Below are positions 32,783-56,610 of a stretch of DNA of 64,000 nucleotides, in pieces. A program made the translations under genes and the position numbers. Where the stretch lies: contig NC_009523.1 in NCBI RefSeq assembly GCF_000016665.1, positions 4,339,501 through 4,403,500 on the forward strand, read 5' to 3'. This DNA is from Roseiflexus sp. RS-1. GTDB lineage: Bacteria; Chloroflexota; Chloroflexia; Chloroflexales; Roseiflexaceae. How positions within the stretch are numbered: position 1 is the first letter of the stretch; the number at the start of each line of letters is the position of its first letter. The notes under the pieces are model-generated. The model ran no database searches. It was not told the origin of the DNA and saw nothing but the letters and a program-made list of their open reading frames with translations.

Positions 32783-32813
32783 CTCAGTAGCCGCCGTCTC
32801 AGGGTCATGGCGG

Positions 32814-33089: not shown

Positions 33090-33155
33090 CGCAACCTCCT
33101 GAGCAAGGCTTGACACGGATGAATATTAGTATAACGGAATATTTATTCAAAGTCC

Positions 33156-37964: not shown

Positions 37965-39086
37965 GTGTTAGCAATAGAGCGCCAGAACGCAATCACAATA
38001 GCGATGCCATCTGTAGAACCCAAATACTCCAGCGACCGGGGCGTTGCGTCGGTCAGGCACGATGAGCATATCGTGCAGACCTGTATTCCGCTGCTTCTGC
38101 ACCCCGATGAACAGGTGCAACGGCAGGCGACGCTTCTCCTGTTGACCCTGTACGGAACCCATGCATTCACATTGCTGCGGCGACGGTTGAGCGACGAAAA
38201 ACCGCAAGTGCGCCGTGAAGCCGAACAGGCGTTACGTGTGCTGGGACGACAGAGCGGGCATCCGGTCGATTTCCGACCCTTCCGCGGCATGCACATTGAA
38301 TGTCTCGGCACACTACGCGTGTATATCGGCAACCAGGAAATCCTCTCCCACGAGTGGGCGCAGTCCAACGTCAGTCGCGCCGGGCGGCGCAAAGTGCAGG
38401 CAGTGCTGGCATATCTCGTGCATCGCGGGCGCGGCGGCGCCTCGGCAGACGAGATCCGGGCTGCGGTCTGGGGAGACGGTGGTGCAACCGGCGCGCTTGG
38501 GCGCACAATGACCGCGCTGCGCCAGACCATTGAGCACTTCGGCGGAACCAGCATGGCGGAGAGCCTCCTGATCTCCAGCAATCAACGCTACATCCTGACA
38601 CCGGATGCCTATACCACTGATGTGCGCTCATTCGAGCATACCATCCGCGTTGCCGAGCAGACCGAACACGACCGCGACCTGGCGGCAGCCGCGCCGGTCT
38701 ACCGCCACGCCTGTGACCTGTATGGCGGACCCTACCTGGCGGGTGTCGATATGCTTGCCGACGAGATCGAAGAACGCCGGACTGAACTCCTCAATGCGTA
38801 TCTGAACGCACTGGAGCGACTGGCGGAATACGCTTATCAACAGGGAGACGACGAGCAATGCCTGGCGCTCTGTCATCGCGGCATTCGCTTCGATCCCACT
38901 GATGAGCGCCTCACGCTCTGGATGCTGCGCTGCTATGCGCGCCAGCGCAACGAGAGCGAGATCGCGCGTGTGTTCCGGCGCTATTTGCGCGCCCTTGCCG
39001 CCCCGCCCGACCAGGGAGATGCAGTGGTGCGCTGGATGCGGCTGCGATCAGGCACACACAACGAAGCCGTAGACATTACGACGTAG
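37965..39086 (+). CDS. SARP/BTAD-type transcription regulator with HEAT-like N-terminus
   Basis: Up to 373 residues (GTG 37965; ATG 38004 possible). The N-terminal helical repeat TCIPLLLHPDEQVQRQATLL is HEAT-like (about 38-90). A winged-helix domain follows: HIECLGTLRVYIGNQEI, RRKVQAVLAYLVHRGRGGAS, GRTMTALRQTIEHFGG, ISSNQRYILTPDAYTTDV. The bacterial transcriptional activation domain (TPR-like) covers about 215-350 (AAAAPVYRHACDLYGGPYLA, ALCHRGIRFDPTDERLTLWM). It lies immediately upstream of the secretion cluster on the same strand, about 480 bases away, so it is a candidate regulator of that cluster. Confidence 0.85.
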   Translation: MLAIERQNAITIAMPSVEPKYSSDRGVASVRHDEHIVQTCIPLLLHPDEQVQRQATLLLLTLYGTHAFTLLRRRLSDEKPQVRREAEQALRVLGRQSGHPVDFRPFRGMHIECLGTLRVYIGNQEILSHEWAQSNVSRAGRRKVQAVLAYLVHRGRGGASADEIRAAVWGDGGATGALGRTMTALRQTIEHFGGTSMAESLLISSNQRYILTPDAYTTDVRSFEHTIRVAEQTEHDRDLAAAAPVYRHACDLYGGPYLAGVDMLADEIEERRTELLNAYLNALERLAEYAYQQGDDEQCLALCHRGIRFDPTDERLTLWMLRCYARQRNESEIARVFRRYLRALAAPPDQGDAVVRWMRLRSGTHNEAVDITT

Positions 39087-39564
39087 CACCTGCCTTCTTT
39101 TGAGAATCACACACCTCATCGGTACGACGCCCCGCGACAAACACCAGACCGGAACGCAGACCCATCGTTCTGATCACTATGCCGGAAGCGCAGGCAAACG
39201 CAAAGACGATTGCAGCGGAGCGCAGGATGAATTTTCAGAAATTCGTCGGGACGGCGTGCACCTCAGGCGGGACTATGAGTTCCAAAATTATATAGTCTTC
39301 ATCAGCCCGCACGAGTCAGGTCAAGCCTGAACGACGGAAGTTGGATTTCATTTCCTCAAGGTTCATCAGGCATCCCGCGATACCATCCTGGTATCTGATG
39401 ATAAGTTCTAAATATCATTATGACAAGTTAACCAAAAAAAACCGAAAACCGGCATGTAGAATAGTGATGGGAGGTTTGCAGGCGCCGGGCAATGTTCTGA
39501 CACGCCCGACCTTCAATGCCGTCACCAGTATCGCATCGTCCTTGCCTGTTGAGGAACATTGCAC
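39087..39564. other. Leader region of the type VII-like cluster
   Basis: 478 bases without a gene. AT-rich patch at 39395-39465 (GACAAGTTAACC, A-tract, TGTAGAAT at 39455-39462), the likeliest promoter zone, though spacing to a -35 is not convincing. Confidence 0.45.
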
Positions 39565-40260
39565 ATGTCCATCGAATTCGACGTATCGTGGGCGCCTTCC
39601 GAGCACAAGACGGTCTCTCGTGAACCTGATAAGACCATTCGTGAGGTCGTCCAGAGTCTGGTTGTGCAACTGAACCTGCCGGAGTACGATCCGCAGGGAC
39701 GACGGATCGTCTACGGGTTATACCGCGAGCACGACGGTGAACGGGAACTTCTCCAGGACGCACGCACGCTGAAAAGTGCGCGCATCCAGGCGCAAACGGT
39801 CTATATTGCGAATGTGGCTGCACCCTGGTGGCAGTCCAACGCTACGCTGCCTGCTCCAAAACCAGGTCCCCGCCCTCCGACAAAGCCACTGCCGCGACGA
39901 CTCGCGTCGCCCTCTTCCTGCCGGCTCAAACTGGCGCCCAGTTGCACTGTTGTGGTTCAGGGCGATTATCTTGAACTCGACCGCGCCTACCTGTCGAGCA
40001 CATTGCCCCAGACGACCATCCTGGCGGAAAAAGCGCATATCTTCAGCGGGTTTGACTCGCGTCTCATGCACGTCAGTCGAAAGAACCACTGCGCCATCAT
40101 TCGCCAGGGTGATCACTGGCTGTTGCGCGCATATAAACCCACCTATGTCAACGGCAAATTACTCAACAATGGTCAGACGGTGACGATTCAGCCGCCAGGA
40201 GCGGAGGTTGTTCTTGGAAACGGCGGATGGCCCATCACCATTGAACTGTTTGAGGCATAG
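39565..40260 (+). CDS. Ubiquitin-like (YukD/EsaB-type) and FHA-like fusion protein
   Basis: 231 residues from ATG 39565 (TTG 39559 possible). N-terminal beta-grasp domain (about 1-88): IREVVQSLVVQLNLPEYDPQ, RIVYGLYREHDGERELLQDA and VYIANVAAPWWQ, resembling EsaB/YukD ubiquitin-like proteins of type VII systems. A Pro-rich linker, then a degenerate FHA domain (about 125-231): SRLMHVSRKNHCAIIRQGDH, KPTYVNGKLLNNGQTV. FHA domains read phospho-Thr, so it may link the cluster's kinase to the ATPase. First gene of the cluster; the N-terminal fold and PWW motif recur in the 50956 protein. Confidence 0.72.
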   Translation: MSIEFDVSWAPSEHKTVSREPDKTIREVVQSLVVQLNLPEYDPQGRRIVYGLYREHDGERELLQDARTLKSARIQAQTVYIANVAAPWWQSNATLPAPKPGPRPPTKPLPRRLASPSSCRLKLAPSCTVVVQGDYLELDRAYLSSTLPQTTILAEKAHIFSGFDSRLMHVSRKNHCAIIRQGDHWLLRAYKPTYVNGKLLNNGQTVTIQPPGAEVVLGNGGWPITIELFEA

Positions 40261-40340: not shown

Positions 40341-40619
40341 ATGCCGCCAATCAGTTTAGACCCGCAGCAGGCTCGTGCGACCGCATCGGTGTTCGATGGA
40401 GGCAAAGGTTCCATCGAAGGCGAATTGAGTCGCATGATGAGTTCGGTCAGCGAGGTGACGTCCACCTGGTCTGGTCAAAGCCGACAGCAGTTCGAGTCGC
40501 GCTGGGAAGAGTGGAGTCAGCGACTGCGCACCATGATGGACGAGTTGCAGAATCTGGCGAACGGACTGCGCCGCGAGGCGGAGGAATTTGAGTCTGTCGA
40601 TCGATCATTCAATGCATAA
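40341..40619 (+). CDS. WXG100 protein 1
   Basis: 92-residue ESAT-6-like helical hairpin, the substrate class of type VII secretion. The turn has Trp-Ser-Gly in EVTSTWSGQSRQQFESRW, flanked by two helices of expected length. Near the C-terminus, FESVD in EEFESVDRSF resembles the YxxxD/E export signal with Phe for Tyr. AAAGGAGG ribosome site, so probably highly translated. 42 bases before a close paralogue. Confidence 0.93.
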   Translation: MPPISLDPQQARATASVFDGGKGSIEGELSRMMSSVSEVTSTWSGQSRQQFESRWEEWSQRLRTMMDELQNLANGLRREAEEFESVDRSFNA

Positions 40620-40661: not shown

Positions 40662-40943
40662 ATGCCCATGATCAGTCTTGACACCGATGCGGCGCGCTCG
40701 GCTTCCGCGACGTTAGCCGCAAGCAAAAGTTCGATCGAAGGCGAACTGGGCCGCATGATGAGTTCGGCAAACGAGGTCATGTCGACCTGGTCTGGTACAA
40801 GCCGACAGCAGTTCGAGTCGCAGTGGGAGCAGTGGTGCCAGAAACTGCGAACAATGATGGAAGAATTGCAGAGCCTCTCGAACGGGTTGCGCCGCGAGGC
40901 GGAGGAGTTCGAGGCGGTTGATCGATCATTCCTGGCTGCCTGA
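40662..40943 (+). CDS. WXG100 protein 2
   Basis: 93 residues, paralogous to the previous gene (SSIEGELGRMMSSANEVMST then WSGTSRQQFESQWEQW). FEAVD near the C-terminus again matches an FxxxD-type signal. The pair could form the obligate heterodimer seen for EsxA/EsxB. GAGGAG ribosome site. A strong hairpin separates it from the ATPase gene. Confidence 0.93.
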   Translation: MPMISLDTDAARSASATLAASKSSIEGELGRMMSSANEVMSTWSGTSRQQFESQWEQWCQKLRTMMEELQSLSNGLRREAEEFEAVDRSFLAA

Positions 40944-40999: not shown

Positions 41000-43900
41000 A
41001 TGACAGTGACTGAGACCAATCCGACCGAAGCGCCAGCAATCGATGCGCCGGAGTCGTTCAACCGACCGCCGCGTATCCTGCGCAGGTTGCCGACCGATGA
41101 GATCGAGATTCCGGCGCCGCCCGGCGCTCCAACACTGTCGTTGCCGGCGCGCCTTGGGTTCATCCTGCTTCCGGCGATAACCGGCATCTTCTACCTGATC
41201 GCTCTGATTGCGCGTGGCGGTCAGGGAGGGAGCATCTGGCTGTCGTTGCCGATCGTGCTCATTTCATTCGCCAGCGTTGCGATGGGAATCTGGACCTATA
41301 TCTCGCAACGTCGCGCTCAGGAGCAGGCTCGCCAGGAGTACGAGAATGCCTATGCCGAAACGCTTGAACGGGTTCGCTCCCATCTCCGTTTCCTTGATGC
41401 AGAACAGCGCAACGTGCGCGAGGCGAATGACCCTGAACCGACCACACTGGTGCAGATTGTTGAGGGTGATGGCGACCTGCCTGAACCGCGTCTCTGGGAA
41501 CGACGCTCAAACGACGAGGACTTTCTTCGCCTGCGCATCGGGCGCGGCGATCTGCCCACCAGCGTCACTATCAAGCCGCCACGCGCCAATCAGTTCCAGT
41601 ATACGCCGGAACTGCGGCGGGCGCTTGACCTGGCGCGCGAGTTCGCCATGGTGCGCGATGTTCCGATAACGCTTGCGCTCCGCCAGTGCGGTTCGATCGG
41701 CATTGCCGGCAATGACGCTGCTGTCGTCCAGTTTGTCTATGCGTTTATATGGCAGATCGTCGTTCATCATTCGCCGGACGAGGTGCGCCTGGCGGCGTTC
41801 TGGTCAGCACATTTCGATACAACATGGTCATGGTTGCGATGGCTTCCGCATACGCGCGCCTTTGACGAAGAATCGTACCGTTTACTTGCGCGCTATGACG
41901 GCGATCCCGATCACTTCACCCAGGTTGTTGAAAGTCTCCTGCGCGAACTGCGTCAGCGGATCGAGTATGGCGTCACCAATCGTCCGCATGTTGTCATCGT
42001 GCTCGACAGTTATCCGACATTCGGCGCGCAGCACGACGTCTTTCTCGATCTGATGAGACGCGGGCGCTCGCTGGGCTTCAGCGTGCTGTTTCTTGTTTCC
42101 GAATCGCGGCAGACGCCGGGCGAGTGCGGCGGCTACATCGAACTGACGCCACGCACGTTGCTTGCCCTGGCGGGCGCCGAAGGAGGATACACCCCATTTT
42201 CTCCCGACAGCGTCACGCGCGCTGAGAGCGAACGCCTGGCGCGCACCCTGGCGCGCATCGCAGATGTCTCCCTCGACCAGCAGCGTGAACTGCCGCGCAA
42301 TGTGCGTTTCTCGACCATCCTGGACCTGGGAGAAGTCAAGACCTACGATCCAGAACAGTTCTGGAAAGACCCTTCCGATAGCTGGCATCCGGCGCCTGTT
42401 GGTATGACGGGACCCGACGCTCACCATGATCGCTTTGCGATCAATCTCAACGAAGGTTTTCATGGCGTCCATGGCATCGTCGCCGGAACCACCGGTTCGG
42501 GCAAGAGCGAATTTCTGCTTACCTTCCTGATGTCGCTGGCAGTGCTCCACAGCCCGGATCGCCTGAACCTCATGCTGATCGACTTCAAAGGCGGCGCAAC
42601 GTTCAAAGACCTGGAAGGTCTGCCGCATACGGTCGGTATGGTGACCGATCTGGCAGGGTACGAGGCGGAACGGGCGCTGATTGCGATCAACAGCGAACTC
42701 GACCGGCGCAAACAGCGATTGCAGCGCGCCAATGTCGCCAATATCCGCGAATATCGCCGCAGGATGGCGCGCAATCCATCCCTTGCGCCGTTGCCGAACC
42801 TGATGATCGTGATCGATGAATTCGATGAAATGGTGCGCGACTACCCGGAATTCGTCCCCGAACTGATCCGGGTCGCCAAACAGGGGCGCAGCCTTGGCGT
42901 GCATCTGCTCTTTGCCACTCAGCAGCCATCACAGGTCAAAGAAGGGTTGCTCCGCAACCTGACCTACTGGATAGCCCTCCGGGTTACCTCGACCGAGGAC
43001 AGCAAGACGATGGTCACCATCCCCGACGCGGCATATCTGACGACCGAAACGCCGGGACGCGGCTACTTCCGGGTGAACAAACAGATCGTCGCCTTTCAAT
43101 CGGCGCGTGTGACTGTGCCCTACCAGCCATTTGAACGGAGCGACTCATTCGGCGAGGTCGATGTGACCGGTCGGCGAAAGGTGATCAGCGCCCACGAACT
43201 GGGCATCGAGCGTTTTGTGAATGATGTGCTTCGCCTGTGTGAACAGTATCGCGCTGAACCACGCGCGCTGGAGATCATCACGCCGCAGGCGGCGTACCGG
43301 TACACTTCAGCAGTCGCGCGCCGCGAACTGCCCGCACCGGTCAACCCCGGCGAGCCGCAGGCGATCATCCGTCAGGCGTTGCAACGCTACTTCGAGCAAA
43401 CCGACGAAGACGCAACCGAAGCCGGCAGGCGGGTTATCCGCGATATGGTTGCGCAACTCGAAGGCAAGCGCGACGTCGAGACCGAACTGGCGCTGATTGT
43501 GGAAGCCATGGCGCGGGCGCGCGGACCGCAGTACGCCTCCGCAAAGTATCGGGTGTGGATGCCGCCGTTGCCCGATGCCATCCCGCTGGTCGATCTGCTC
43601 GACAGAGCGCCGCTCGCCCCCGACGCCTGGATGCAGGCGCCGATAGGGTTGCTCGACTACCCGACACGCGCTGAGCAACTCCCGCTGGTTCTCGACCTGG
43701 CAGGCAAACACGGCAATCTGCTGATCGTCGGCGGATCGCGGTCGGGCAAAACCGTGCTGGTGCGCACCCTCATGCTGGCGCTCGCTATGACGCACTCGCC
43801 TGCAGACCTGTGGATGTACACGATTGATGCCGGTGGTCGGGGGTGCGGCATGGCGCTGCCGCCTGTTGCCGATGGCGACGCGAGCGACAGGGTGCTGCCG

Positions 43901-45667
43901 CATCTGGCGGACATGCTGACACCGCAGGACAGCGTGCGCATCGAACGATTGCTGGTCGAACTCGAATCAGCCATTGAAGACCGCCGCAGCCTGCTGCGCA
44001 CCCACGGCGTCGATACCCTCGGCGAGTACCGGCGCCTGCATCAGCGCAACCCATCGTTGCCGCCGCCACCGCCGGGCATCCTGGTGGTGATTGACAACCT
44101 GGCCGATCTGGTCGGCGCACAACCGGAAACAACCATAGAAGCGCTCATGGCGCTGATCCGCGAAGCGCGCCCGTTTGGCATCGTCTTCGTGGTAACGGCT
44201 GGCCTGGCAAAGGATGTGAGCCGCTGGCAGGGGTTGTTCGAGACGCGCATTGTGTTGCGAGTCAATGATGAAAACGACTCGGACACGCTGCTCGGCAAAA
44301 AGGTGGCCGCCCGCATCCGCGCCGATCAACCGGGGCGCGCCTTCCTGCGCACCGGCGAAGGAGCGGTGGAACTGCACGTTGCGTTGCCGATCCTGCGCGA
44401 TCTGCGGCGCCGTGAAGGGCGCGGCGCCGACGATGCGCTGCTGTCCGGCGATATGCAGGGTGAACTCGAATACTCGCTGCGGATCGCTGCGCGCCGCAAT
44501 CGGTTCACCCCCGAACATGCCCGCCCGCATCCGCTGCGCCTGCTGCCGCCACGGATCGACCTGCGCGACCTGCTGGATGAAGTTCCGGCGCCTGGCATCC
44601 CCTTTGCGCGCGATAGCCTGACGCTGCGCCCGGTGACGCTCGACTTCGACAGCGGTATGAGCCATCTGCTGATCGCCGGTGGTCCGGATAGCGGCAAATC
44701 AGAGACGTTGCGCACCATTCTTACCGCGCTGATGCTGCGTTCCACGCCGGACGAGACGCAGTTCGTGCTGGTTGACTACCGCCGCCGCACGTTCCAGGAG
44801 ATACTGGAAACACCTTTCGTGCCTGCCTGGTCGATCCAGGTTCCTCACGATCCCGTCCCGCTGCCATCGTCGTTTGCAAATACCAGACATGACCAGCGTG
44901 ACATCAACCTTGCCGTCACCGAAGGCGAACTGGCAGGGCTATGCATGAGACTGCGCGAGCGGTTGAATGAGCGGGTGTACCTGGGAGTATCCAGACCTCG
45001 ATTGATTCTGGCGGTCAACGACCTCGACCTGATGATCGGCAGAGAACAGGAGTATCTGGCGCAACTGGCGTCGCTGGCGATGCGTGGCAGCGATATTGGC
45101 TTCCACGTCATTCTTACGGCAACCGATTTTTCATCGTGGCAGAGCAGCAATCAACTCATTAAAGCCATCCGCACGGAACGCTGCGGTCTCTTCCTGGGCA
45201 AACCGGCTGAACCCGGCAGTGACACGCCAAACATTGCAGGCGTCGGCGTCCGGTGGTCGAAAACGCTGGCGAAAGCGCAATTTCCGCCAGGACGGGGGCT
45301 GGCGCTGCTGCGCGGTCAGCAGATGCTGGTACAGGTCGCCTATACCGGTTCCGCAATGCTCGACGAGATCCGGCAGCGTTACCGGACAACAGCGCAGATC
45401 GACGGGCAGAACGGCGCTCTCGACGCCGACATCGGGCAGGTCGCCCCGGAGCACAGCGCCGATGCGGAGCAGAACGCCACTGACATCGGGCAGGTCGCCC
45501 CGGAGCGCGGCGCCGATGCGGAGCAGAACGCCGCTGACATCGGGCAGGTCGCCCCGGAGCACAGCGCCGATGCGGAGCAGAACGGCTCTGACCGCGACAC
45601 AGCACCTGTTGCCGTCAATGTATCGGCAAACCCGGTCCACGAGACAACCGGAGGTCGCAATGACTGA
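41000..45667 (+). CDS. EssC/EccC-type FtsK-SpoIIIE ATPase (type VII secretion motor)
   Basis: 1555-residue membrane ATPase, the core of ESX/Ess secretion. Two TM helices (about 52-100: LGFILLPAITGIFYLIALIA, LSLPIVLISFASVAMGIWTY), then a linker ATPase-like domain. Three FtsK-like modules: D1 Walker A GTTGSGKSE (about 496-504) and Walker B MIVIDEFDEM; D2 GGSRSGKTV (about 911) with VVIDNLADLV; D3 GGPDSGKSE (about 1229) with LAVNDLDLMI. Only D1 has the DE catalytic pair. Unlike Firmicute EssC it has no N-terminal FHA domains, which are on separate proteins here. The C-terminus has three 18-residue repeats. No clear ribosome site. Overlaps the next gene by 8 bases. Confidence 0.95.
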   Translation: MTVTETNPTEAPAIDAPESFNRPPRILRRLPTDEIEIPAPPGAPTLSLPARLGFILLPAITGIFYLIALIARGGQGGSIWLSLPIVLISFASVAMGIWTYISQRRAQEQARQEYENAYAETLERVRSHLRFLDAEQRNVREANDPEPTTLVQIVEGDGDLPEPRLWERRSNDEDFLRLRIGRGDLPTSVTIKPPRANQFQYTPELRRALDLAREFAMVRDVPITLALRQCGSIGIAGNDAAVVQFVYAFIWQIVVHHSPDEVRLAAFWSAHFDTTWSWLRWLPHTRAFDEESYRLLARYDGDPDHFTQVVESLLRELRQRIEYGVTNRPHVVIVLDSYPTFGAQHDVFLDLMRRGRSLGFSVLFLVSESRQTPGECGGYIELTPRTLLALAGAEGGYTPFSPDSVTRAESERLARTLARIADVSLDQQRELPRNVRFSTILDLGEVKTYDPEQFWKDPSDSWHPAPVGMTGPDAHHDRFAINLNEGFHGVHGIVAGTTGSGKSEFLLTFLMSLAVLHSPDRLNLMLIDFKGGATFKDLEGLPHTVGMVTDLAGYEAERALIAINSELDRRKQRLQRANVANIREYRRRMARNPSLAPLPNLMIVIDEFDEMVRDYPEFVPELIRVAKQGRSLGVHLLFATQQPSQVKEGLLRNLTYWIALRVTSTEDSKTMVTIPDAAYLTTETPGRGYFRVNKQIVAFQSARVTVPYQPFERSDSFGEVDVTGRRKVISAHELGIERFVNDVLRLCEQYRAEPRALEIITPQAAYRYTSAVARRELPAPVNPGEPQAIIRQALQRYFEQTDEDATEAGRRVIRDMVAQLEGKRDVETELALIVEAMARARGPQYASAKYRVWMPPLPDAIPLVDLLDRAPLAPDAWMQAPIGLLDYPTRAEQLPLVLDLAGKHGNLLIVGGSRSGKTVLVRTLMLALAMTHSPADLWMYTIDAGGRGCGMALPPVADGDASDRVLPHLADMLTPQDSVRIERLLVELESAIEDRRSLLRTHGVDTLGEYRRLHQRNPSLPPPPPGILVVIDNLADLVGAQPETTIEALMALIREARPFGIVFVVTAGLAKDVSRWQGLFETRIVLRVNDENDSDTLLGKKVAARIRADQPGRAFLRTGEGAVELHVALPILRDLRRREGRGADDALLSGDMQGELEYSLRIAARRNRFTPEHARPHPLRLLPPRIDLRDLLDEVPAPGIPFARDSLTLRPVTLDFDSGMSHLLIAGGPDSGKSETLRTILTALMLRSTPDETQFVLVDYRRRTFQEILETPFVPAWSIQVPHDPVPLPSSFANTRHDQRDINLAVTEGELAGLCMRLRERLNERVYLGVSRPRLILAVNDLDLMIGREQEYLAQLASLAMRGSDIGFHVILTATDFSSWQSSNQLIKAIRTERCGLFLGKPAEPGSDTPNIAGVGVRWSKTLAKAQFPPGRGLALLRGQQMLVQVAYTGSAMLDEIRQRYRTTAQIDGQNGALDADIGQVAPEHSADAEQNATDIGQVAPERGADAEQNAADIGQVAPEHSADAEQNGSDRDTAPVAVNVSANPVHETTGGRND
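45428..45589 (+). repeat. Three 54-bp tandem repeats inside the ATPase gene
   Basis: Units at 45428, 45482 and 45536, each encoding DIGQVAPEHSADAEQNAT or a close variant. Acidic, probably disordered tail after the third ATPase module. Confidence 0.92.
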
Positions 45668-46511
45668 GTACGAACTGTGGCGCTACTTCGAGCAGTATGC
45701 TCAAATGAGCAATGCGTGGTGGTATTCGGTTGCCGTACTGCCGGCGACGATCATTTCCGCATGCGCCTACTTCCTGATGTGGCTGGCGCTGCGACGAACC
45801 AGGCAGTTGCCCAAGATGTTTCTCTGGCTCTGCGTTGGCAGCATTCCGGTGATCCTGATCCTGCCATCGTTCTATGTCAGCATCAATCTGACCGACGCTC
45901 TGGCGCGTGTCGGGTTTGTCGCTCCGGCGAACGAGCAGCAGATGAGCCGCGCTGTAGCGCTCCAGATCGGCGCGTACCTGAGTCAGATCGCCACCCTCGG
46001 CATCATCGGGGCATCGCTGGCAGTTGTCATTCTCATCGCAGCCATTCTGATCGGCGGCTATGCACCGCAGCAGATTATGCAAACCGTCCAGTCACTGTCA
46101 CAGAGTTTCTCTAAGGCAATGACGCGCGCCTTCGGACCGCCGCGGACAGCGCGGGTCGCCGCCAGCTCGAAGTACGGCATCATCAAGGTCATGCGCGCTG
46201 GTGCGCAACAGGGCGCGCAGTTCGGCGTGACCAACGGCGCAATCATCGGCAAGAGCGACGCGACAATGGTCATTACTGACGATATCGTGTCACGCCGTCA
46301 CGCGCGTTTTGAAATCCGTAACGACTCGGTCTTTTTGATCGATATGAACAGCACAAATGGAACCTATGTCCGGCGCAACCAGCGCGACGAGGAACTCAAC
46401 GGCGATCCGTTTGAATTGCGCCATGGCGACATCATTTATCTCGGCTCGCCCTCAGAACCGGAATCGGTTGAGTTGCGGTATGAGCGCACCCTATCAGGAG
46501 GACAGTCATGA
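45660..46511 (+). CDS. Membrane FHA-domain protein
   Basis: 283 residues from ATG 45660, with a good GGAGGT site. Three membrane helices: YSVAVLPATIISACAYFLMW, MFLWLCVGSIPVILILPSFY, and TLGIIGASLAVVILIAAILI. C-terminal cytoplasmic FHA domain (about 185-275): GAIIGKSDATMVITDDIVSR, RHARFEIRNDSVFLIDMNST, then NGTYV. This supplies the phospho-Thr reader that EssC carries as an N-terminal fusion in Firmicutes. The gene overlaps the ATPase gene upstream (8 bases) and the vWA gene downstream (ATGA). Confidence 0.9.
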   Translation: MTEYELWRYFEQYAQMSNAWWYSVAVLPATIISACAYFLMWLALRRTRQLPKMFLWLCVGSIPVILILPSFYVSINLTDALARVGFVAPANEQQMSRAVALQIGAYLSQIATLGIIGASLAVVILIAAILIGGYAPQQIMQTVQSLSQSFSKAMTRAFGPPRTARVAASSKYGIIKVMRAGAQQGAQFGVTNGAIIGKSDATMVITDDIVSRRHARFEIRNDSVFLIDMNSTNGTYVRRNQRDEELNGDPFELRHGDIIYLGSPSEPESVELRYERTLSGGQS

Positions 46512-47734
46512 AGCGGATCGGTATCATCACAACCCTTCTCGTTGCCCTGCTCCTGGTTGCTCCGGCACACGCGCAAAGTCCCGCCTGCCAGGGGTTAGAG
46601 GTTCATGCTGCGCAACTCACGTTTCCAACCGTCGCCATTCAGTTCAGCGTCTGTGACGCACAATGGAACCGGATCACCACGCTGGACAGGAGCGCCGTCC
46701 GCATCATTGAAGACGGAACTCCGATCACCAGTTTCACCCTGGAATCGCAGACAGCGCACGACGGACAACCGGTTCAAACCGTGCCCCTGGTGAACGGTGG
46801 CACATTCACGCTGGTGACGACCGGCGCGAGTATCGGGATTGTGTTCGACGCTTCGCAACTGCTCAACGGCACTGGCGCCGGTGCAGGCGATCATCTCGGC
46901 GCGGCACGCGCCGCTATCGAAGCGTTTCTCCTTGAGCCAGGCGATCCGCCGCCGCCGCGCACCCGATCGCCGGGCAATATGGAGCGCGTCGCGCTCTTCA
47001 TTCCGGCGGATCAGCCGGCGCAGGCGTTGCAGCCAGACGGGTTGCCGGGATTCACCCAGGATCGGTATGCGGTGATCAATACCCTGCGTCAGAACCTGCC
47101 GGTCCGTCAGGGGAAAACCAGCCTGAATGCCGCCATTCAGGCCGCCATCGACGCCACTGCTCGCGATGCGCAGGAAAACGGCGGCAAAGCAGTGGTGCTG
47201 GTGGTGAGTGACGGTGGCGACGCGCTAACCGGCGACTCGTTCAATAGTTTGATCAGCCAGGCGTCGCAAAAACAGGTGAAGATTGTGGCGTTCGGCATCG
47301 GAACGGATAAAGCGCTGCAGAATAACGGGTTTCGGCTGAAACAACTCGCCGAAGCGACCGGTGGCATCTATCTTGAACGACCGGATGCGAACAGCGTCGG
47401 CAGCGCTTTCCAGCTCGTGGTGCAATCACAACCGGCTGCGATCTATACCGTGCGCTACGATACCCGGATCATCGACGATGGAAAATCGCACACAGTAGTT
47501 CTAGAAGTGGTTACTCCTTCTGGAACGCTGAGCTATCCGTTTCCGCTCACCGCCAATGTGCCGTCACCCAATATCACGCTCGCGCCGTTGGGAGACGTGC
47601 TGCTGCGGCAGTATTTCATGTTCGCCATTCCAATCGCCGTCATGCTCTCACTGGTTCTGACCCTGATGAGCGGCGTCATTTTCTGGGTAGGCAGCGCTTC
47701 GTCCGGCATAACACGCGGAAAGACACGACACTGA
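46508..47734 (+). CDS. Exported, membrane-anchored vWA-domain protein
   Basis: 408 residues. Signal peptide (MKRIGIITTLLVALLLVAPA HAQ), a beta-rich N-terminal part, a von Willebrand A domain (about 100-315; GIVFDASQLLNG, KTSLNAAIQAAIDATARD, KAVVLVVSDGGDALTG) and a C-terminal TM (YFMFAIPIAVMLSLVLTLMS). The MIDAS loop is DASQL rather than DxSxS, so metal binding may be weakened. A probable extracytoplasmic scaffold of the secretion complex, like vWA proteins found with FHA/PP2C/kinase sets. ATGA-coupled to the FHA gene. Confidence 0.87.
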   Translation: MKRIGIITTLLVALLLVAPAHAQSPACQGLEVHAAQLTFPTVAIQFSVCDAQWNRITTLDRSAVRIIEDGTPITSFTLESQTAHDGQPVQTVPLVNGGTFTLVTTGASIGIVFDASQLLNGTGAGAGDHLGAARAAIEAFLLEPGDPPPPRTRSPGNMERVALFIPADQPAQALQPDGLPGFTQDRYAVINTLRQNLPVRQGKTSLNAAIQAAIDATARDAQENGGKAVVLVVSDGGDALTGDSFNSLISQASQKQVKIVAFGIGTDKALQNNGFRLKQLAEATGGIYLERPDANSVGSAFQLVVQSQPAAIYTVRYDTRIIDDGKSHTVVLEVVTPSGTLSYPFPLTANVPSPNITLAPLGDVLLRQYFMFAIPIAVMLSLVLTLMSGVIFWVGSASSGITRGKTRH

Positions 47735-47750: not shown

Positions 47751-49130
47751 ATGCCCGAAATCCCAATTCCGTCGCGGCTGGGCAATTTTGAGATACTCGA
47801 CCTGATTGGCGTCGGACTGAGCGGCGAGGTCTACAAGGCGCGCTACCACGATGGCACGATGGTGGCGCTCAAGGTGCTTGCCATGCGACATCACAAAAAC
47901 CCGACGGTGTTCGGATACTTCACCAATGAACAACTGTTGCTCCGCGAGGTGGCACAGCACCGACGTCACCCGCACATCGTCGAATATCTCACCAGCAATC
48001 TCAACCGACCACCGTACTACCTGGCGACGCGCCTGGTGGAAGGCGCGCGCGGGTTGGACGCTATGCTCGGCGACCGACCATTGATGCCCGCAAGCGGCAA
48101 GCCGCAACTGGCTTCCTTTGTGGTGCGCGTTGTTTCCCAGATCGCCAGCGCGCTCGATTACCTGCACGCCGGTCATCCGACCTACAGCCCGATCATCCAT
48201 CGCGACGTCAAGCCGTCGAATATCCTGATCGACTCAAATGGCAACGCAGTGCTGATCGACTTCAGCATTGCCAGCCACCCGCACTATGCGCTGGTCGATG
48301 AAAAAAATCTGGGAACTCCCGGCTACATGGCGCCGGAGCAGTACGAAGGTCGGGAAGTGCCAGCATCGGATCAGTTCGCGCTGGCGGTCATTGCACTCCA
48401 TATGCTGACCGGTCGCCGCCCATTACCCAACAGCGCCACCTCGTCGCTCAAACAGATCGAACGCTGGCGGGACACAAAGCATGAGGAGATCGTTCGTCTG
48501 CTGGGAAACCGCACCCATACCGCCGATGTGCTTCGTCGCGCGCTGGCATACGATCCGGCGGCGCGCTACGAAAGTTGTGAGATTTTCGCCGACCAGTTGC
48601 GCCGCGCGCTGGTGCAGGACGGCGAGAATGTATATGCACAACCAGAGCGCATAAGAGGTCAATCTCCCATGCCGCATTCGACCAGACACGTTGCGTTCTC
48701 GCCGTTCATTCTTGGCTGGATCGGCATGGGTATCGTCGTGGCGATTGCGCTGCTGATGCTGATCCTGGCAGTGGCCGCGCCAGCAAGCGGCGAACAGGCC
48801 GTCCCTACAGCACCCGTCGTGTCAGCGGCAACCGCAACCCTGGCGGCAGTGACAGCAAAGCCGACATCCTCCCAGGCAACGCCTGTACCTGCAATTCAGA
48901 GCATCCTCGTTCCGGCGGGGGCGGCAGGGGCAGCGGGATCGGTCACAATCATCAACCGCGAACCGCTCCGTGCTCAACCATCAACCGAAAGCAACATCCT
49001 GGCATGGATGCCGGACGGGGCGCAGGCCAGTCGAACCGGCAACGAACAGCGGAACGGCTCACTGGTATGGTACGAAGTGCAGTACGACGGCAAGATCGGC
49101 TGGTGTCGCAACATCTCCTGCAAACCGTAG
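47751..49130 (+). CDS. Transmembrane Ser/Thr protein kinase with SH3-like ectodomain
   Basis: 459 residues. Kinase domain 11-290: Gly loop IGVGLSGEVYKA, Lys in MVALKVL, HRDVKPSN (about 150), DFS in place of DFG (about 170), MAPEQY and DQFALAVIALHMLTGRRP. All catalytic residues but the DFG Gly are kept, so it is probably active. TM at about 318-340 (GWIGMGIVVAIALLMLILAV), a Thr/Ala/Pro stalk, then an SH3b-like ectodomain (about 398-459, EPLRAQPSTESNILAWMPDG, WYEVQYDGKIGWCRN). In type VIIb systems the EssB component is a pseudokinase with a TM, so this may be its enzymatically live counterpart. AGAGGTGG site. Confidence 0.92.
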   Translation: MPEIPIPSRLGNFEILDLIGVGLSGEVYKARYHDGTMVALKVLAMRHHKNPTVFGYFTNEQLLLREVAQHRRHPHIVEYLTSNLNRPPYYLATRLVEGARGLDAMLGDRPLMPASGKPQLASFVVRVVSQIASALDYLHAGHPTYSPIIHRDVKPSNILIDSNGNAVLIDFSIASHPHYALVDEKNLGTPGYMAPEQYEGREVPASDQFALAVIALHMLTGRRPLPNSATSSLKQIERWRDTKHEEIVRLLGNRTHTADVLRRALAYDPAARYESCEIFADQLRRALVQDGENVYAQPERIRGQSPMPHSTRHVAFSPFILGWIGMGIVVAIALLMLILAVAAPASGEQAVPTAPVVSAATATLAAVTAKPTSSQATPVPAIQSILVPAGAAGAAGSVTIINREPLRAQPSTESNILAWMPDGAQASRTGNEQRNGSLVWYEVQYDGKIGWCRNISCKP

Positions 49131-49154
49131 ACGCAACACATAAGGGGGCGCTGT

Positions 49155-50906
49155 ATGGGCACGAGCACCGCCAGTTTCGATATTGATGCGCGCACCGACC
49201 GCGGGCGCCAGCGCTCGAACAATCAGGATAGCATCGGGCGCGCCGATCGATGGAAAAACCGCGATGGTCAACCGATCGAGCGCAGTCTGAGAGAACGGTA
49301 CGGACGCCTCTACATCGTCGCCGATGGCGTCGGCGGCAATGCCGACGGCGCGGACGCCAGCCGTATGGTTGTCGATGAGGTTATGCAGGCATTTTACTAC
49401 GACACCCGACTGCCCGAAGAACCGGTCGAACGTCTGCGCGCCGCCATCGAGTTCGTCACGAGCGTTATTCACGCTGAAGCGCACCGGCGCCATAACAACA
49501 TGGCATCGACAATCGTCGCTGCGCTCATCCATGACAGCACACTGACCATCGCAAATGTGGGTGACAGTCCGGCGTTGCTCTGCCGTCCGGGACAGACGCC
49601 TAAACTGCTCACCAAGGCGCATGTGCGTCGTGAAGCCGATGGCGGCACATCGCTGGCGCAGGCGATGGGTGATCAGCAGGTCGTTCCATCGATCTTCTCC
49701 ATGCCGCTGGAGGAAGGCGACGCGGTGGTGCTCTGTTCCGACGGATTGACCGACCTGGTGCAACCCGACGAAATCGCCGGGATTGTGTCGACTCGAATGG
49801 CTGGCGACGCCACTCGCACGCTTATTGCGCTGGCGAACCGCCGTGGCGGGCACGATAACATCAGCGCGATTGTGGTACGCAACGCACCGCCGCCAAAAGG
49901 CGTCGCTCCCTTCGCCGGTCGGCGAGTGCTCATGGCAGTGGCAGCCCTGGGAGTGGCCGGGCTGCTCGGAGTGGCGCTACTGGCGCTTCCTTTGCTAAAC
50001 GCTGCTCCAATCTTGCCTCAAGGATCATCGCAACAGTCCGGCACATCGTTCTCAACCCCGCTTTTCGGCAGTGGCAGTCACACGACCATCCCCGGCGGAC
50101 TTCCGACGTCAACCCTCGGCGCGCTGCCAACACCGACCGACACGCCGGTACCGCCAACAGCAACCCGGCGCCCCCCTACCGCTCGCCCGACTGCACAACC
50201 GTCACCGGTCAGCAGCACTCCGGTTCTGTCAACGAGTGAGATTGTTGTTCCGACCAGCACGCCGACTCCTGACGACAGGACGATCATGCCAGACCTGATC
50301 CGCAAGCCGCTGCAGGAGGCGGAGAATATCCTCAAGACGCTGGGCGTGCAATACATCACCGAAGTCGTTCCGGGAAGCGACGATATTCCTCCCGGTCACA
50401 TCGTCGCAACCGATCCACCGGCAGAAGCGAAGATCGTTCCGGGCAACCCCATAAAGATAAAAGTCAGGCAAAACCCGACGCCACCTCCGGCGAATAACCC
50501 GCCGCCACCGGTGAATAACCCGCCACCGGCGAATAACCCGCCACCGGCGAATAACCCGCCGCCACCGGCAAATGACCCGCTGCCGGCAACACCAACACCG
50601 CAGATGTCTGGTCCTGTTGTGCCAACTGCGCCACCGACACCGGAGCCGACCGCGACACCGTTACCAACGTCGACCTCTGAATCCGGCGGTTCCGGCGGTT
50701 CCGGCGGCTCCGGCGGCGGCTCCGGCGGCTCCGGCGGTGGCTCCGGCGGCTCCGGCGGCGGCTCCGGCGGCTCCGGCGGCGGCTCCGACGGCTCCGGCGG
50801 CGGTTCTGGCGGCTCCGGCGGCGGTTCTGGCGGCTCCGGCAGCGGTTCCGACGGCTCCGGCGGTGGTTCTGGCGGCTCCGGCGGCTCCGGTGGAACCAAT
50901 CCTTGA
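49155..50906 (+). CDS. Transmembrane PP2C phosphatase with PASTA ectodomain and GGS tail
   Basis: 583 residues. PP2C domain 5-245 with metal motifs NNQDSIG, YIVADGVGGNADGADASR, ANVGDSPALL, CSDGLTDLV and GGHDNISAIVV. TM (LMAVAALGVAGLLGVALLAL, about 259-278). A Thr/Pro-rich stalk, one PASTA domain (about 377-438; MPDLIRKPLQEAENILKTLG, PPGHIVATDPPAEAKIVPGN), a PPPANN repeat stretch (about 441-478), and a 70-residue Gly/Ser tail. PASTA domains bind muropeptides and normally belong to PknB-type kinases; here the domain is on the phosphatase. Follows the kinase by 24 bases and is likely its antagonist. Confidence 0.92.
   Translation: MGTSTASFDIDARTDRGRQRSNNQDSIGRADRWKNRDGQPIERSLRERYGRLYIVADGVGGNADGADASRMVVDEVMQAFYYDTRLPEEPVERLRAAIEFVTSVIHAEAHRRHNNMASTIVAALIHDSTLTIANVGDSPALLCRPGQTPKLLTKAHVRREADGGTSLAQAMGDQQVVPSIFSMPLEEGDAVVLCSDGLTDLVQPDEIAGIVSTRMAGDATRTLIALANRRGGHDNISAIVVRNAPPPKGVAPFAGRRVLMAVAALGVAGLLGVALLALPLLNAAPILPQGSSQQSGTSFSTPLFGSGSHTTIPGGLPTSTLGALPTPTDTPVPPTATRRPPTARPTAQPSPVSSTPVLSTSEIVVPTSTPTPDDRTIMPDLIRKPLQEAENILKTLGVQYITEVVPGSDDIPPGHIVATDPPAEAKIVPGNPIKIKVRQNPTPPPANNPPPPVNNPPPANNPPPANNPPPPANDPLPATPTPQMSGPVVPTAPPTPEPTATPLPTSTSESGGSGGSGGSGGGSGGSGGGSGGSGGGSGGSGGGSDGSGGGSGGSGGGSGGSGSGSDGSGGGSGGSGGSGGTNP
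50678..50894 (+). repeat. GGS-encoding low-complexity array
   Basis: Repeats of GGCGGCTCCGGC and variants encoding (GGS)n with a few Asp substitutions, at the 3' end of the PP2C gene. Prone to slippage, so length may vary between strains. Confidence 0.92.
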
Positions 50907-50955: not shown

Positions 50956-52260
50956 ATGACACTTCATCAACAGACATATCGCCTTTACCTGGGCGCCAAT
51001 CAGGTAACTACCGTTACGCTGCGCACTGATGAACCGCTCTACCGGATCGTCGAGCGCCTGGTGATTGAGCACGGCCTGCCGGTGGTCGATCAGTACGGAC
51101 AACCCATCACCTATGCCCTCTACGCGGGGCAGATCCGCCGGTTGAGCAATGAGATGACGCTGAGGCAGGCAGGCTACGATCAGGGTGGCGACCTCTATCT
51201 GGCGAATATCTATGCGCCGTGGTGGGAAGGCATTCCCGCCGTCACCCGGCGCTTCGGCGACGATCCACCCGCACCAAACGCCCGTCGCATTCCCTATGCG
51301 CTGGTTGGCATCGGCGCTGCCGTTGCGCTGATGGTGGTTATCGGCGGCGTCCTGCTATTTACTATCTTTTCAGGAAGGACGGGGACGGCTGCGCAAACGT
51401 CCGCCCTGGCGCAGCAACCGGCGCAAGGCGCCACGCAACGTTCCAATCCCACGGCAACGCTGGCGCCGGCGCCGACGCGCCAGAACACGCCCCAGTCAGC
51501 GCCTCCGACAGCGACGCTGGCGTCAACGCCACAACCGATGACGGGATTGCCGACTGCGACGCTGGCGTCGATACCGCAACTGACGACGGCATTGCCCACC
51601 GCGACTCTGGCATCGCCAGGAAACACGGTTGCCGTCTTGCTTCCGGCTGGCGCCGAAGAAGCCAGCGTTGCCGGTGTCAAACGCGAGTACCTCAACCGGG
51701 ACAACCGGCTCTTCTTCCAGGGGCGCACCAGCTTCGGCGCATACCTCTGGAGTGACTCCGGTCTACAAACGAAGGCGCCGGCCAGCCGGGGCGACATCGT
51801 CGTCAGCAACGGCGACAGGGTGGCGATTCTGAGTCAGAACAACGGCATTGCGCAGGTGCGCATCATCACCAATGCGCTTGATCCCGCCGATCCGAAAGTT
51901 ATCGGCGCGACCGGCTACCTGCCCGCGTGGCTCATTACCGATCAGAATGTGCCGCCGCCGCCAACTCCGGTTCCAGATGCAGGGAAACTGTGGGTGCGCA
52001 AATTGAACGAGGATGATGAACCAGGATGTATCTCTATGCGCATCACCGGGATCAACACCCGGGGATGGAGTTTCGGCGTCGATGGGATGAACCTGGCCGG
52101 ACGGTTTGACAATGCCGGTAATGCCCGACTGTGCGGGCTGGGTCCCGATCAGGAGGTGACGATCAGCGTGCGCGACCAGCGCGGCAGGGTGGTTCCCGGC
52201 GGCAGAGGCGTGCCTGCTAAAGGACGCGACATTATGCTCGGAACCTGGCAACGGAACTGA
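50956..52260 (+). CDS. Ubiquitin-like domain protein with one TM and SH3-like ectodomain
   Basis: 434 residues. N-terminal beta-grasp (about 1-88) homologous in pattern to the 39565 protein: VTLRTDEPLYRIVERLVIEH, YALYAGQIRRLSNEMTLRQA, LYLANIYAPWWEG. TM at about 113-138 (YALVGIGAAVALMVVIGGVL). The ectodomain has a Thr/Pro stalk with three TATLAS repeats, an SH3b-like region (GDRVAILSQNNGIAQVRIIT, GATGYLPAWLI) and a C-terminal beta domain. A YukD domain tied to membrane helices recalls actinobacterial EccD, but with a single span. Confidence 0.75.
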   Translation: MTLHQQTYRLYLGANQVTTVTLRTDEPLYRIVERLVIEHGLPVVDQYGQPITYALYAGQIRRLSNEMTLRQAGYDQGGDLYLANIYAPWWEGIPAVTRRFGDDPPAPNARRIPYALVGIGAAVALMVVIGGVLLFTIFSGRTGTAAQTSALAQQPAQGATQRSNPTATLAPAPTRQNTPQSAPPTATLASTPQPMTGLPTATLASIPQLTTALPTATLASPGNTVAVLLPAGAEEASVAGVKREYLNRDNRLFFQGRTSFGAYLWSDSGLQTKAPASRGDIVVSNGDRVAILSQNNGIAQVRIITNALDPADPKVIGATGYLPAWLITDQNVPPPPTPVPDAGKLWVRKLNEDDEPGCISMRITGINTRGWSFGVDGMNLAGRFDNAGNARLCGLGPDQEVTISVRDQRGRVVPGGRGVPAKGRDIMLGTWQRN

Positions 52261-52300: not shown

Positions 52301-52578
52301 CAGAGGTAACCCGATGAGCCAGATCAAAGCCGACACTGATGCGTTACGCGCAACTATTGCCGCGATGCGGCAGGGAAGCAGCGCCATCGAGAATGCCCTC
52401 CAGCAGGCGGCGCAGGCGATGGCGACGCTCCAGAACAGTCGCTGGTCCGGCAATCACCGGCAGCAGGCGGAAGAGGTGTGGACGCGCCTGCAGGCGCAGT
52501 TTGCGCCCACGATCGAGGCGCTGAACCAGATTGCAGCCCGCACCGAGCGCTTCACCAACGCGCTCGAAGAGGCTGGGC
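52301..52578 (+). repeat. Direct repeat: WXG head, copy 1
   Basis: Includes the ribosome site (CAGAGGTAACC) and about 265 bases of coding sequence. Nearly identical to 53390-53667, 1089 bases downstream, with only scattered single-base changes. Similarity stops abruptly at the end of the WXG head. Confidence 0.92.
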
Positions 52579-53348
52579 GGGTGTTTGGGGATGGAACGGC
52601 GCACCTTCCTCCTCCCCACACACATCCATCTGACGGAGCTACTGCACCATCAAAGGGAACCGAGACCCCTGCGCCCCCGCCACCAAACACAACGCCGCCG
52701 CCGCCTCCGCCCAACCGGTCAGCGATACTGAACCAGAAGGTGCGCTTGAATAACGGCGCCGAAGTTCTGGTTGCACACCTCGACGGGCGAACACCGGTGG
52801 CTGGCATGGATAGCATCTACGGTAAACCTGGACAACTGCCGTTGAACGCAGTGATTACCAGCACGCCGGAAAATCGCGATCCAGACCTCTATGCTGCCGT
52901 TATCCACCAGTTTGGCGTAGAAGGCAACCCGCGCTATGCTCCCGACCAGTATACGTACTGTAACACGTTCGCAGGAGATGTCGTGCGGGCAATGGGAGCG
53001 CCGCTGCCAACCAAATCAGACCTGGGCATAAGCAAGGGTGACCGCGCGACGGTGGGCACGCAGGCGTTGTACCGCTGGTTAACAACCAACGCAGGCGCCC
53101 AGGGATGGCGCGAAGTGAATCCGAACACGCCTGAAGGACTCCGACTATTGCAGGAACATGTCAACGCCGGTAAACCGGCGCTTGCAGCGGATGAAGGTCA
53201 CGTAGCCGTTATCAGACCCGGGCAACAGGCCAATTCGGTTGCAGATTTGCGCATTGCCCAGGCAGGAGCGCGAAATCTGAATAATGTCCGACTGGGTGAT
53301 GCCGGGTTGGGTAGCGCATTCAGACCGCGCTACTTCATTCACGCATAG
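52314..53348 (+). CDS. WXG-headed protein with Cys/His peptidase-like tail (probable effector 1)
   Basis: 344 residues. Residues 1-95 form a WXG100-like helical hairpin (ATLQNSRWSGNHRQQAEEVW, with Trp-Ser-Gly). A Pro/Thr linker (about 96-142, PPPNTTPPPPPPNRS) leads to a C-terminal domain with Cys216 in YTYCNTFAGDVVRAMG and His296 in DEGHVAVIRPG, an arrangement typical of NlpC/P60-like or CHAP-like papain-fold peptidoglycan hydrolases. No signal peptide, so export would depend on the WXG head through the adjacent type VII machine. Family of the tail is inferred from the two motifs. Confidence 0.82.
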   Translation: MSQIKADTDALRATIAAMRQGSSAIENALQQAAQAMATLQNSRWSGNHRQQAEEVWTRLQAQFAPTIEALNQIAARTERFTNALEEAGRVFGDGTAHLPPPHTHPSDGATAPSKGTETPAPPPPNTTPPPPPPNRSAILNQKVRLNNGAEVLVAHLDGRTPVAGMDSIYGKPGQLPLNAVITSTPENRDPDLYAAVIHQFGVEGNPRYAPDQYTYCNTFAGDVVRAMGAPLPTKSDLGISKGDRATVGTQALYRWLTTNAGAQGWREVNPNTPEGLRLLQEHVNAGKPALAADEGHVAVIRPGQQANSVADLRIAQAGARNLNNVRLGDAGLGSAFRPRYFIHA

Positions 53349-53389: not shown

Positions 53390-53667
53390 CAGAGGTAACC
53401 CCATGAGCCAGATCAAAGCCGACACCGATGCGTTACGCGCAACTATTGCCGCAATGCGGCAGGGAAGCAGCGCCATCGAGAACGCCCTCCAGCAGGCGGC
53501 GCAGGCGATGGCGACGCTCCAGAACAGTCGCTGGTCCGGCAATCACCAGCAGCAGGCGGAAGAGGTGTGGACGCGCCTGCAGGCGCAGTTTGCGCCCACC
53601 ATCGAGGCATTGAACCAGATTGCGAACCGCACCGAGCGTTTCACCAACGCACTTGAAGAGGCCGGGC
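53390..53667 (+). repeat. Direct repeat: WXG head, copy 2
   Basis: Second copy of the repeat at 52301-52578; same ribosome site and head domain. Confidence 0.92.
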
Positions 53668-54242
53668 GACAGTTTAACAACGGCGCCAGCATACCGCCTC
53701 CCGGCGCCGAAGCGCCGTCAAAATCTCCTCAACCGCATACTCCATCTCCAGGCAACCCTGATGCAGGTACTGGCGGCTTTCCTCCCCACGCGCCGATTCC
53801 GCCCGGACCGACAACCGTGCCGGGAGTTCTGGCAAACACCGCCGGTTGCACCAATTACGTGCTGCGCAGGCTCAACCTGAACGATATGAAACGCTGGCCC
53901 AACGCACTCGAATGGAACGAGGCGGCGACCAATGCTGGCTACGCGGTCGGCGTCAAACCAAAGAGCGGGTCAGTCATCGTATTTGAGCCAGGAGTGATGG
54001 GGGCAGATAGACAGGCGGGTCACGTGGCGTATGTCGAAGATGTCGTACAGAACCGCGACGGCACATTCAAGGTTACCATCAGCGAAGCCAATGTCGTGTA
54101 TCAAAACGGCGCTGTGGTGTGGGGAACCCACACACCGCCCACCAGACGCGAGATTGTGTTCCGTCAAAACGGTGACGGCACCCTGACCGACAGTCGCGGG
54201 AATCCGGTAAACGTCAGTTTCATCTATGGCAAAAAGGTGTGA
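53403..54242 (+). CDS. WXG-headed protein with CHAP-like tail (probable effector 2)
   Basis: 279 residues. WXG head (1-90) almost identical to that of effector 1. A Pro-rich linker is followed by a different tail matching CHAP amidase/endopeptidases: Cys149 in TAGCTNYVLRRLN, WNEAATNAGYAVGVKPKSGS, His207 in AGHVAYVEDVVQ, and Glu228/Asn230 in VTISEANVVY. CHAP enzymes cut peptide or amide bonds in peptidoglycan. No signal peptide. Likely a secreted wall hydrolase for self-remodelling or attack on neighbours. No separate immunity gene is obvious. Confidence 0.88.
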   Translation: MSQIKADTDALRATIAAMRQGSSAIENALQQAAQAMATLQNSRWSGNHQQQAEEVWTRLQAQFAPTIEALNQIANRTERFTNALEEAGRQFNNGASIPPPGAEAPSKSPQPHTPSPGNPDAGTGGFPPHAPIPPGPTTVPGVLANTAGCTNYVLRRLNLNDMKRWPNALEWNEAATNAGYAVGVKPKSGSVIVFEPGVMGADRQAGHVAYVEDVVQNRDGTFKVTISEANVVYQNGAVVWGTHTPPTRREIVFRQNGDGTLTDSRGNPVNVSFIYGKKV

Positions 54243-55844: not shown

Positions 55845-56192
55845 TCAACGCGTTCCCTGCGCCTCAACGGAGTCCTGACGCACACCACGCTGCACCAGGA
55901 CTCTGTCGCATTCGATGATCGACCGAAATGGAGCGCCTGTCGAAGCCCAATCGACAATATCGACCTTCCAGGGAAGATCGGACTCGGCGAAATCCTCTAC
56001 CAGTGCCGCCAGGACTCGCAGCGGGAGAGGTTCATCGGTCATGATGACGAGATCGAGATCAGAGTACGATCTGGCGCGCCCCTGAGTGCGTGATCCAAAT
56101 GCCCAGACATCGTACTGCGGCACGTGCCGACGCAGAATATCGCGCACAATAGCCAGGTGGTCCGGCTGGATGTCCAGGGTTCGTTCAGACAT
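55845..56192 (-). CDS. MNT-type minimal nucleotidyltransferase (antitoxin)
   Basis: 115 residues from ATG 56192. Nucleotidyltransferase motif GSRTQGRARSYSDLDLVI (GSxxxG with DxD) and a later Asp in WKVDIVDWAS. Pairs with the HEPN gene upstream, overlapping it by 8 bases (ATGTCTGA). In characterised HEPN/MNT pairs the MNT protein AMPylates and neutralises the HEPN ribonuclease. Confidence 0.88.
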   Translation of the reverse strand: MSERTLDIQPDHLAIVRDILRRHVPQYDVWAFGSRTQGRARSYSDLDLVIMTDEPLPLRVLAALVEDFAESDLPWKVDIVDWASTGAPFRSIIECDRVLVQRGVRQDSVEAQGTR

Positions 56193-56610
56193 TGCGCATT
56201 TCCAATGCTCTGAGCACAGCCTGCGCGTCGGTAAGCAAGTCGTGCGCGCGCTGACACACGCTCTGCGCCTTTGCAGCGTCATACGTATGAGCCGTCATGT
56301 TTCGCAACTGGCGATAACCGAACCAGGCGTCCACATCGGCAATCAGTCCCTTTTCCGCTGCTGTGCGCATCATGTCGCGAAAATTGATGAAGTCGATCTC
56401 CGATGGAGAAGCGGCATCGATCTCGAGCCGTCGACGGATCATTTTGATACATAGTTCATAGACGAACTCAAAGTTCTGCACCACTCCAGCAATCAGCGTT
56501 TGTTGCACGTCACTGCGTTGCGCGTCGAACCATGAGCGATCATCCACGACGCGCAGCGCAGCGTCGAGCGATTGAATTGCTTGCGACAGTGACGAAAGAT
56601 CAAGATTCAT
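56185..56610 (-). CDS. HEPN-domain toxin (HI0074/HepT-like)
   Basis: 141-residue helical protein. Family features: WFDAQRSDVQQTLIAGVVQN, FEFVYELCIKMIRRRLE, and the RNxxxH-type active site in YRQLRNMTAHTYD (RNMTAH). Toxin of a type VII toxin-antitoxin module with the overlapping MNT gene. AGGAA ribosome site. Confidence 0.9.
   Translation of the reverse strand: MNLDLSSLSQAIQSLDAALRVVDDRSWFDAQRSDVQQTLIAGVVQNFEFVYELCIKMIRRRLEIDAASPSEIDFINFRDMMRTAAEKGLIADVDAWFGYRQLRNMTAHTYDAAKAQSVCQRAHDLLTDAQAVLRALEMRNV

Follow-up and report, generated by a model that had tools for sequence, protein, structure and literature searches.

In Roseiflexus sp. RS-1, the genes for a serine/threonine kinase and a membrane-bound PP2C phosphatase belong, judged by gene content and profile matches, to a type VII secretion system (T7SS) operon. 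We consider it probable (roughly 0.6) that the pair acts as a reversible phosphorylation switch of the T7SS, with the SH3b domain of the kinase and the PASTA domain of the phosphatase holding the enzymes at the wall and with PASTA serving for positioning rather than as a required sensor. The signals that activate T7SSs are poorly known, and a pair with naturally swapped outside domains offers a comparative set for finding out if the outside domain determines the signal, the location or neither of them.

The window, i.e. the whole stretch of 64,000 nucleotides that was analysed, covers positions 4339501-4403500 of a genome that consists of one contig and measures 5,801,598 bases. The combination by which type VII secretion is recognized, an EccC/EssC ATPase together with WXG100 proteins, was found with both TIGR profiles over their cut-offs and two WXG100 proteins (Table 1). 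No FHA domain was detected in the window ATPase. In the separate membrane FHA protein, Ser211, His214, Asn233 and Gly234 are unchanged in an alignment across 14 relatives. The Pfam FHA match and the EccC profiles thus bear out the preliminary description, which had linked an FHA protein and an ATPase to the enzyme pair. Intergenic gaps are short: the FHA and VWA genes overlap, and 16 bases separate VWA from kinase, 24 kinase from PP2C and 49 PP2C from the next gene. The first protein of Table 1 is conserved 5′ of the WXG100 genes and has homologues in related loci. Immediately 5′ of the operon, a HEAT + BTAD (SARP-like) regulator was noted at 37965-39086.

Table 1. Features of the secretion operon and domains of its kinase and phosphatase (window positions)
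Feature	Position	Strand	Evidence
Putative ubiquitin-like (Ub-like) + degenerate FHA protein	39559..40260	+	Weak FHA match, E 0.009; Ub-like part by eye only
WXG100 protein	40341..40619	+	Pfam E 3.9e-20
WXG100 protein	40662..40943	+	Pfam E 1.1e-16
EccC/EssC FtsK-type ATPase, type VII secretion	41000..45667	+	TIGR03924 522 bits, TIGR03925 373 bits, both above cut-off
Membrane FHA protein, TM segments then FHA	45660..46511	+	Pfam FHA E 3.3e-16
VWA protein, secreted or membrane	46508..47734	+	Pfam VWA E 1.9e-6
Ser/Thr kinase, T7SS-linked, 459 aa	47751..49130	+	ORF exact; domains by Pfam and model
Kinase: Hanks domain, residues 14-280	47790..48590	+	Pfam Pkinase E 1.9e-33
Kinase: TM segment, residues ~324-342	48720..48776	+	Single, strong
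Kinase: SH3b, residues 406-453	48966..49109	+	SH3_3 E 8.6e-8, above Pfam cut-off
PP2C phosphatase, membrane-bound, 583 aa	49155..50906	+	ORF exact; domains by Pfam (PP2C_2 E 2.5e-13) and model
PP2C: catalytic domain, residues 1-242	49155..49880	+	
PP2C: PASTA, residues 377-437	50283..50465	+	PF03793 E 7.6e-11, 42.3 bits vs cut-off 23.2
Putative Ub-like N-domain, TM, proline-rich linker, ectodomain	50956..52260	+	Homologues in related loci; no Pfam domain above cut-off; Ub-like part inferred
Candidate substrate, WXG100-headed	52314..53348	+	Pfam WXG100 E 3.4e-8
Candidate substrate, WXG100-headed, with CHAP (peptidoglycan hydrolase-type)	53403..54242	+	WXG100 E 1.4e-8, CHAP E 3.5e-14

In both enzymes a single strong transmembrane (TM) segment lies between the catalytic domain and the ectodomain, and the SH3_3 and PF03793 matches support the earlier claim of a kinase with SH3b beside a membrane-bound PP2C with PASTA. 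Across relatives, Lys and Arg residues flanking the TM segment number 42 on the catalytic side vs 13 on the other side in the kinases, and 49 vs 18 in the PP2Cs, so that both ectodomains are predicted to lie outside.

The structure model of the kinase contains a kinase fold, a helix at residues 318-342 and a beta domain at residues 396-453, and nearly all catalytic residues are conserved in the alignment. The window kinase reads DFS where DFG is expected; D[FL]S occurs in every main-group cassette kinase, and in the same motif scan the other kinases of these loci read DFG (one DLG), the canonical PASTA kinases being among those with DFG. With 102 bits against a cut-off of 450, the window kinase is not a member of the PknB-type PASTA kinase family NF033483, and Pfam detected no PASTA on it but SH3_3 instead. 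By these sequence comparisons it belongs to a family separate from the canonical PASTA kinases, marked by D[FL]S.

The metal ligands of the phosphatase (Asp25, Asp57-Gly58, Asp137, Asp196 and Asp234), whose presence the preliminary description had presupposed, are all in place and invariant in 20 aligned PP2Cs. In the AlphaFold model, the catalytic domain (pLDDT about 93) leads into a helix (residues 252-281), a disordered linker of ~90 residues and a folded PASTA domain of a helix and beta strands (pLDDT 82-93), which is followed by a Pro-rich stretch and then a Gly/Ser-rich tail. The closest folds to the catalytic domain include tPphA, PstP, Stp1 and the T6SS phosphatase PppA (6jkv). The phosphatase scored 133.5 bits against the Stp1/IreP profile NF033484 (cut-off 230), is not a member of that family, and groups in the tree with T7SS-linked PP2Cs, apart from the Stp1/IreP type. 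The nearest record encoding it is a Roseiflexus sp. MAG (96% identity). As a minor observation, a long Gly/Ser repeat tail ends the PP2C (to 50906) in the window and in genome G078, with Pro-rich repeats instead in G092 and G042.

For residues 377-438, on which the preliminary description had beforehand staked its PASTA assignment, PF03793 was found at 377-437. A chance match was rejected on account of its E value and of matches at the same position in three relatives, and on its own the segment matches best, among solved structures, the PASTA region of Mycobacterium tuberculosis PknB.

A class-wide search located the PP2C and EccC together, and 20 surrounding stretches were examined. The order FHA-VWA-kinase-PP2C was found in about 20 Chloroflexota loci, window included. 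EccC adjoins the cassette in 13 loci, counting G078, where the halves lie at facing ends of two contigs. It is absent from the examined stretch around the cassette in the Herpetosiphon-like genomes G030, G036, G038 and G068, so the EccC link is not universal; for G010, G121 and one G028 locus, the contig or stretch ends or EccC is on another contig. A close PP2C (E <= 2.5e-40) is encoded in 21 of 150 genomes of the class and EccC in 43, all 21 genomes with the PP2C having EccC (hypergeometric p 5e-14, relatedness ignored). Within the genus of the window, three of six genomes have both and three of six neither. The stretch matched by EccC in G050 (L092 3248-7670) contains one in-frame stop and is divided between an ORF of 619 aa and one of 841 aa, which may be a natural split or an assembly error.

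The outside domains vary across these loci while the enzymes stay conserved, and by sequence comparison they are evolutionarily interchangeable. SH3b is present on most cassette kinases, some matches lying under the Pfam cut-off; no SH3 match at E 0.05 was obtained for the G030 kinase and the G028 C16 kinase, the G139 kinase (L096) has an unassigned ectodomain, and the G121 kinase (L095) is the sole cassette kinase with PASTA, of penicillin-binding protein (PBP) type. Proline-rich linkers occur in nearly all relatives. The PP2Cs of the window, G078, G092 and G042 carry PASTA and form one clade. Those of ten genomes (G066, G050, G098, G070, G121, G139, G064, G088, G062 and G010) have only Pro-rich tails, which were judged by reading, with only G050 scanned by Pfam and some running to the contig end. 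Thrombospondin type 3 (TSP3) repeats were found on PP2Cs of Herpetosiphon-like genomes (the G030 match lies under the cut-off) and Calx-beta with TSP3 on the G028 PP2C. G138 and G148 have a related cassette, at most possibly T7SS-linked, with PBP-type PASTA or another domain on the PP2C; the G138 kinase is without TM segment, the G138 PP2C has TM and PASTA, and the G148 kinase was read only as a fragment. Judged from these sequences, most relatives have only Pro-rich tails or other domains, so that PASTA is not a constant part of this phosphatase; the idea that it is a conserved hallmark was rejected because it is confined to four genomes of one clade.

The PP2C tree unites the cassette phosphatases in a single group (100/99). 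PASTA occurs within the four-genome clade (96/92) and, independently, in the separate cassette, which needs two changes even when only starred branches are counted. The G121 kinase, a different protein, gained its PASTA in addition to these. Against Pfam PASTA, the domains of the G121 kinase (E 0.003) and the G138 PP2C (E 0.002) are sub-threshold, but a profile built from PBP1A PASTA domains only matched them with i-Evalues of 6e-19 and 1e-24, respectively. The window PP2C PASTA gave no match to this class A PBP profile, so that at least two PASTA sources are indicated. In a separate observation, Chloroflexota class A PBPs, such as the PASTA-bearing one elsewhere in the same genome (L007 6059-8893), carry PASTA domains of a subtype of their own (about 72-74 residues, insertion included), which is reused on a T7SS-cassette kinase (L095) and on a PP2C (L119).

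In the proposed switch, the kinase would phosphorylate its own threonines or those of secretion components. The FHA protein would read the phosphothreonine mark and govern how the EccC channel assembles or works, and the PP2C would reset the mark; the kinase SH3b and the PP2C PASTA may hold the enzymes to the cell wall or to wall-synthesis sites. Because the outside domains are interchangeable, PASTA most likely positions the phosphatase and is not a strictly required ligand sensor. The switch is suggested by the placement in a secretion operon, the kept catalytic residues, the predicted single-pass topology with outside C-terminal domains and the intact FHA reader residues. Against it stand the Herpetosiphon-like cassettes that are not beside EccC in the examined stretches, and the D[FL]S in place of the kinase DFG.

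The threonine phosphorylation pathway of type VI secretion may serve as a working analogy, since there PpkA phosphorylates Fha, which permits assembly, and PppA resets the system and lets the machine move (PMC6082577). The likeness lies in a secretion-encoded membrane kinase, a PP2C and an FHA protein; the parts list is similar and may work alike, the machine differs (T6SS vs T7SS), and there is no evidence for common descent as a system. We know of no wall domain on PppA.

According to the accessible part of PMC11217815, T7SSc-T7SSj have kinase (TsxD), PPM phosphatase (TsxF), vWA (TscE) and FHA (TsxJ) components, and phospho-control has been suggested for such kinase/phosphatase/FHA T7SSs of Bacillota and Actinomycetota. 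They resemble the window in combining, in varied sets, an EccC/EssC-type ATPase and WXG100 proteins with a membrane kinase with outside C-terminal domain, a PPM phosphatase, vWA and FHA, and the T7SSc ATPase, like the window EccC, is without N-terminal FHA. The differences are that TscF is predicted to be cytoplasmic, whereas the window PP2C has TM and PASTA and departs from T7SSc in this criterion; that TscE has no TM; and that the C-terminal regions of TscD and TsdD are helical, in contrast to SH3b on the window kinase. In that accessible text, T7SSc-T7SSj are described only in Bacillota and Actinomycetota, and the words 'chloroflex' and 'PASTA' are absent. A TM kinase with SH3b has a precedent as well: the accessible part of PMC1262709 describes a Synechocystis kinase with the same kinase-TM-SH3b order and reports no secretion operon for it. 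A PP2C with TM and outside domain, SH3b on a TM kinase, and kinase/phosphatase T7SSs are all already known. A PP2C with PASTA ectodomain was not found in the open-access PMC literature, where the Chloroflexota cassette and the ectodomain turnover between both enzymes are likewise undescribed, absence there being weak evidence.

On the model of the preliminary description, PASTA would instead be a receptor that binds muropeptides or lipid II and thereby turns the phosphatase up or down, so that the wall state is read through dephosphorylation. The PASTA domain of PknB binds mDAP-lipid II and governs where that kinase is located and how active it is (PMC6428115), and in the four genomes the PASTA fold is kept although the more distant ones are only ~40% identical in it. 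Comparing the window with G092 and G042, identity is 80 and 69% in the catalytic domain, 41 and 38% in PASTA, and 39 and 37% in the linker; strong purifying selection on PASTA was unsupported, dN/dS being about 0.34 vs about 0.40 for the linker (window vs G092). Divergence at about linker speed is at least as compatible with a tethering role as with that of a specific receptor, and ligand sensing is possible too. Phylum-wide and plasmid searches gave no further match reaching the PASTA region among the matches listed, a search of genome contig records gave only one, in a near-identical Roseiflexus record, and a G139 match (C23) reaching the region was rejected as a Pro-rich tail. In G138, sensing of the outside could only fall to the phosphatase, which has both TM and PASTA whereas the kinase is without TM, but this cassette has at most a possible link to a T7SS. 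Moreover, a single PASTA joined to the membrane by a disordered linker is a poor build for allosteric transmission, and most orthologues are without PASTA, so that we regard the receptor as unlikely. Doubtful as well is the broader proposal that wall-binding domains hop between T7SS switch enzymes and that, in the Roseiflexus lineage, the phosphatase reads the state of the wall, so that binding of wall precursors by PASTA would control dephosphorylation of FHA-read marks and thereby secretion.

It is improbable that kinase and PP2C are mainly structural parts of the T7SS, similar to the EssB pseudokinase, with catalysis secondary and the outside domains helping to span the wall. The topology is that of EssB-type components, as noted for TscD in the accessible part of PMC11217815, and both the proline-rich linkers and the change of DFG to D[FL]S would fit such a role; however, the conserved metal ligands of the PP2C, nearly all kinase catalytic residues, and the pairing of the kinase with an intact PP2C in the loci examined argue for catalysis.

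The known PknB/Stk1/PrkC and PstP/Stp systems share with the preferred switch a Hanks-type kinase and a PP2C, outside domains of wall-binding type and, for PstP, membrane anchoring, and differ in carrying PASTA repeats on the kinase and not on the phosphatase. The preliminary description called the ectodomains exchanged and the phosphatase of such systems soluble. The latter does not hold generally, since PstP of M. tuberculosis is anchored by a TM helix and carries an extracellular domain of 191 residues (PMC3052367). The former was not upheld: a canonical kinase with three PASTA repeats is retained elsewhere in the genome (L006 7027-8871), PASTA matches outside this PP2C were found in all 24 relatives scanned (some of those proteins were inspected), and the window kinase is of a separate family whose usual ectodomain is SH3b, so that the supposed exchange is rather a second, secretion-dedicated pair. 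A true domain exchange within the housekeeping PknB/Stp pair, with no relation to secretion, agrees with the domain content at first sight but was rejected as very improbable, since the canonical PASTA kinase persists in the same genome, the kinase family and the PP2C clade (100/99) are separate, and the operon is a T7SS.

Elsewhere in the window, two adjoining small ORFs on the minus strand (55845-56610) are nucleotidyltransferase (MNT)/HEPN-like by eye and may form a toxin-antitoxin pair. On the minus strand at 31925-33116, ORFs in two frames resemble a transposase (IS630-like by eye) and lie between unrelated genes.
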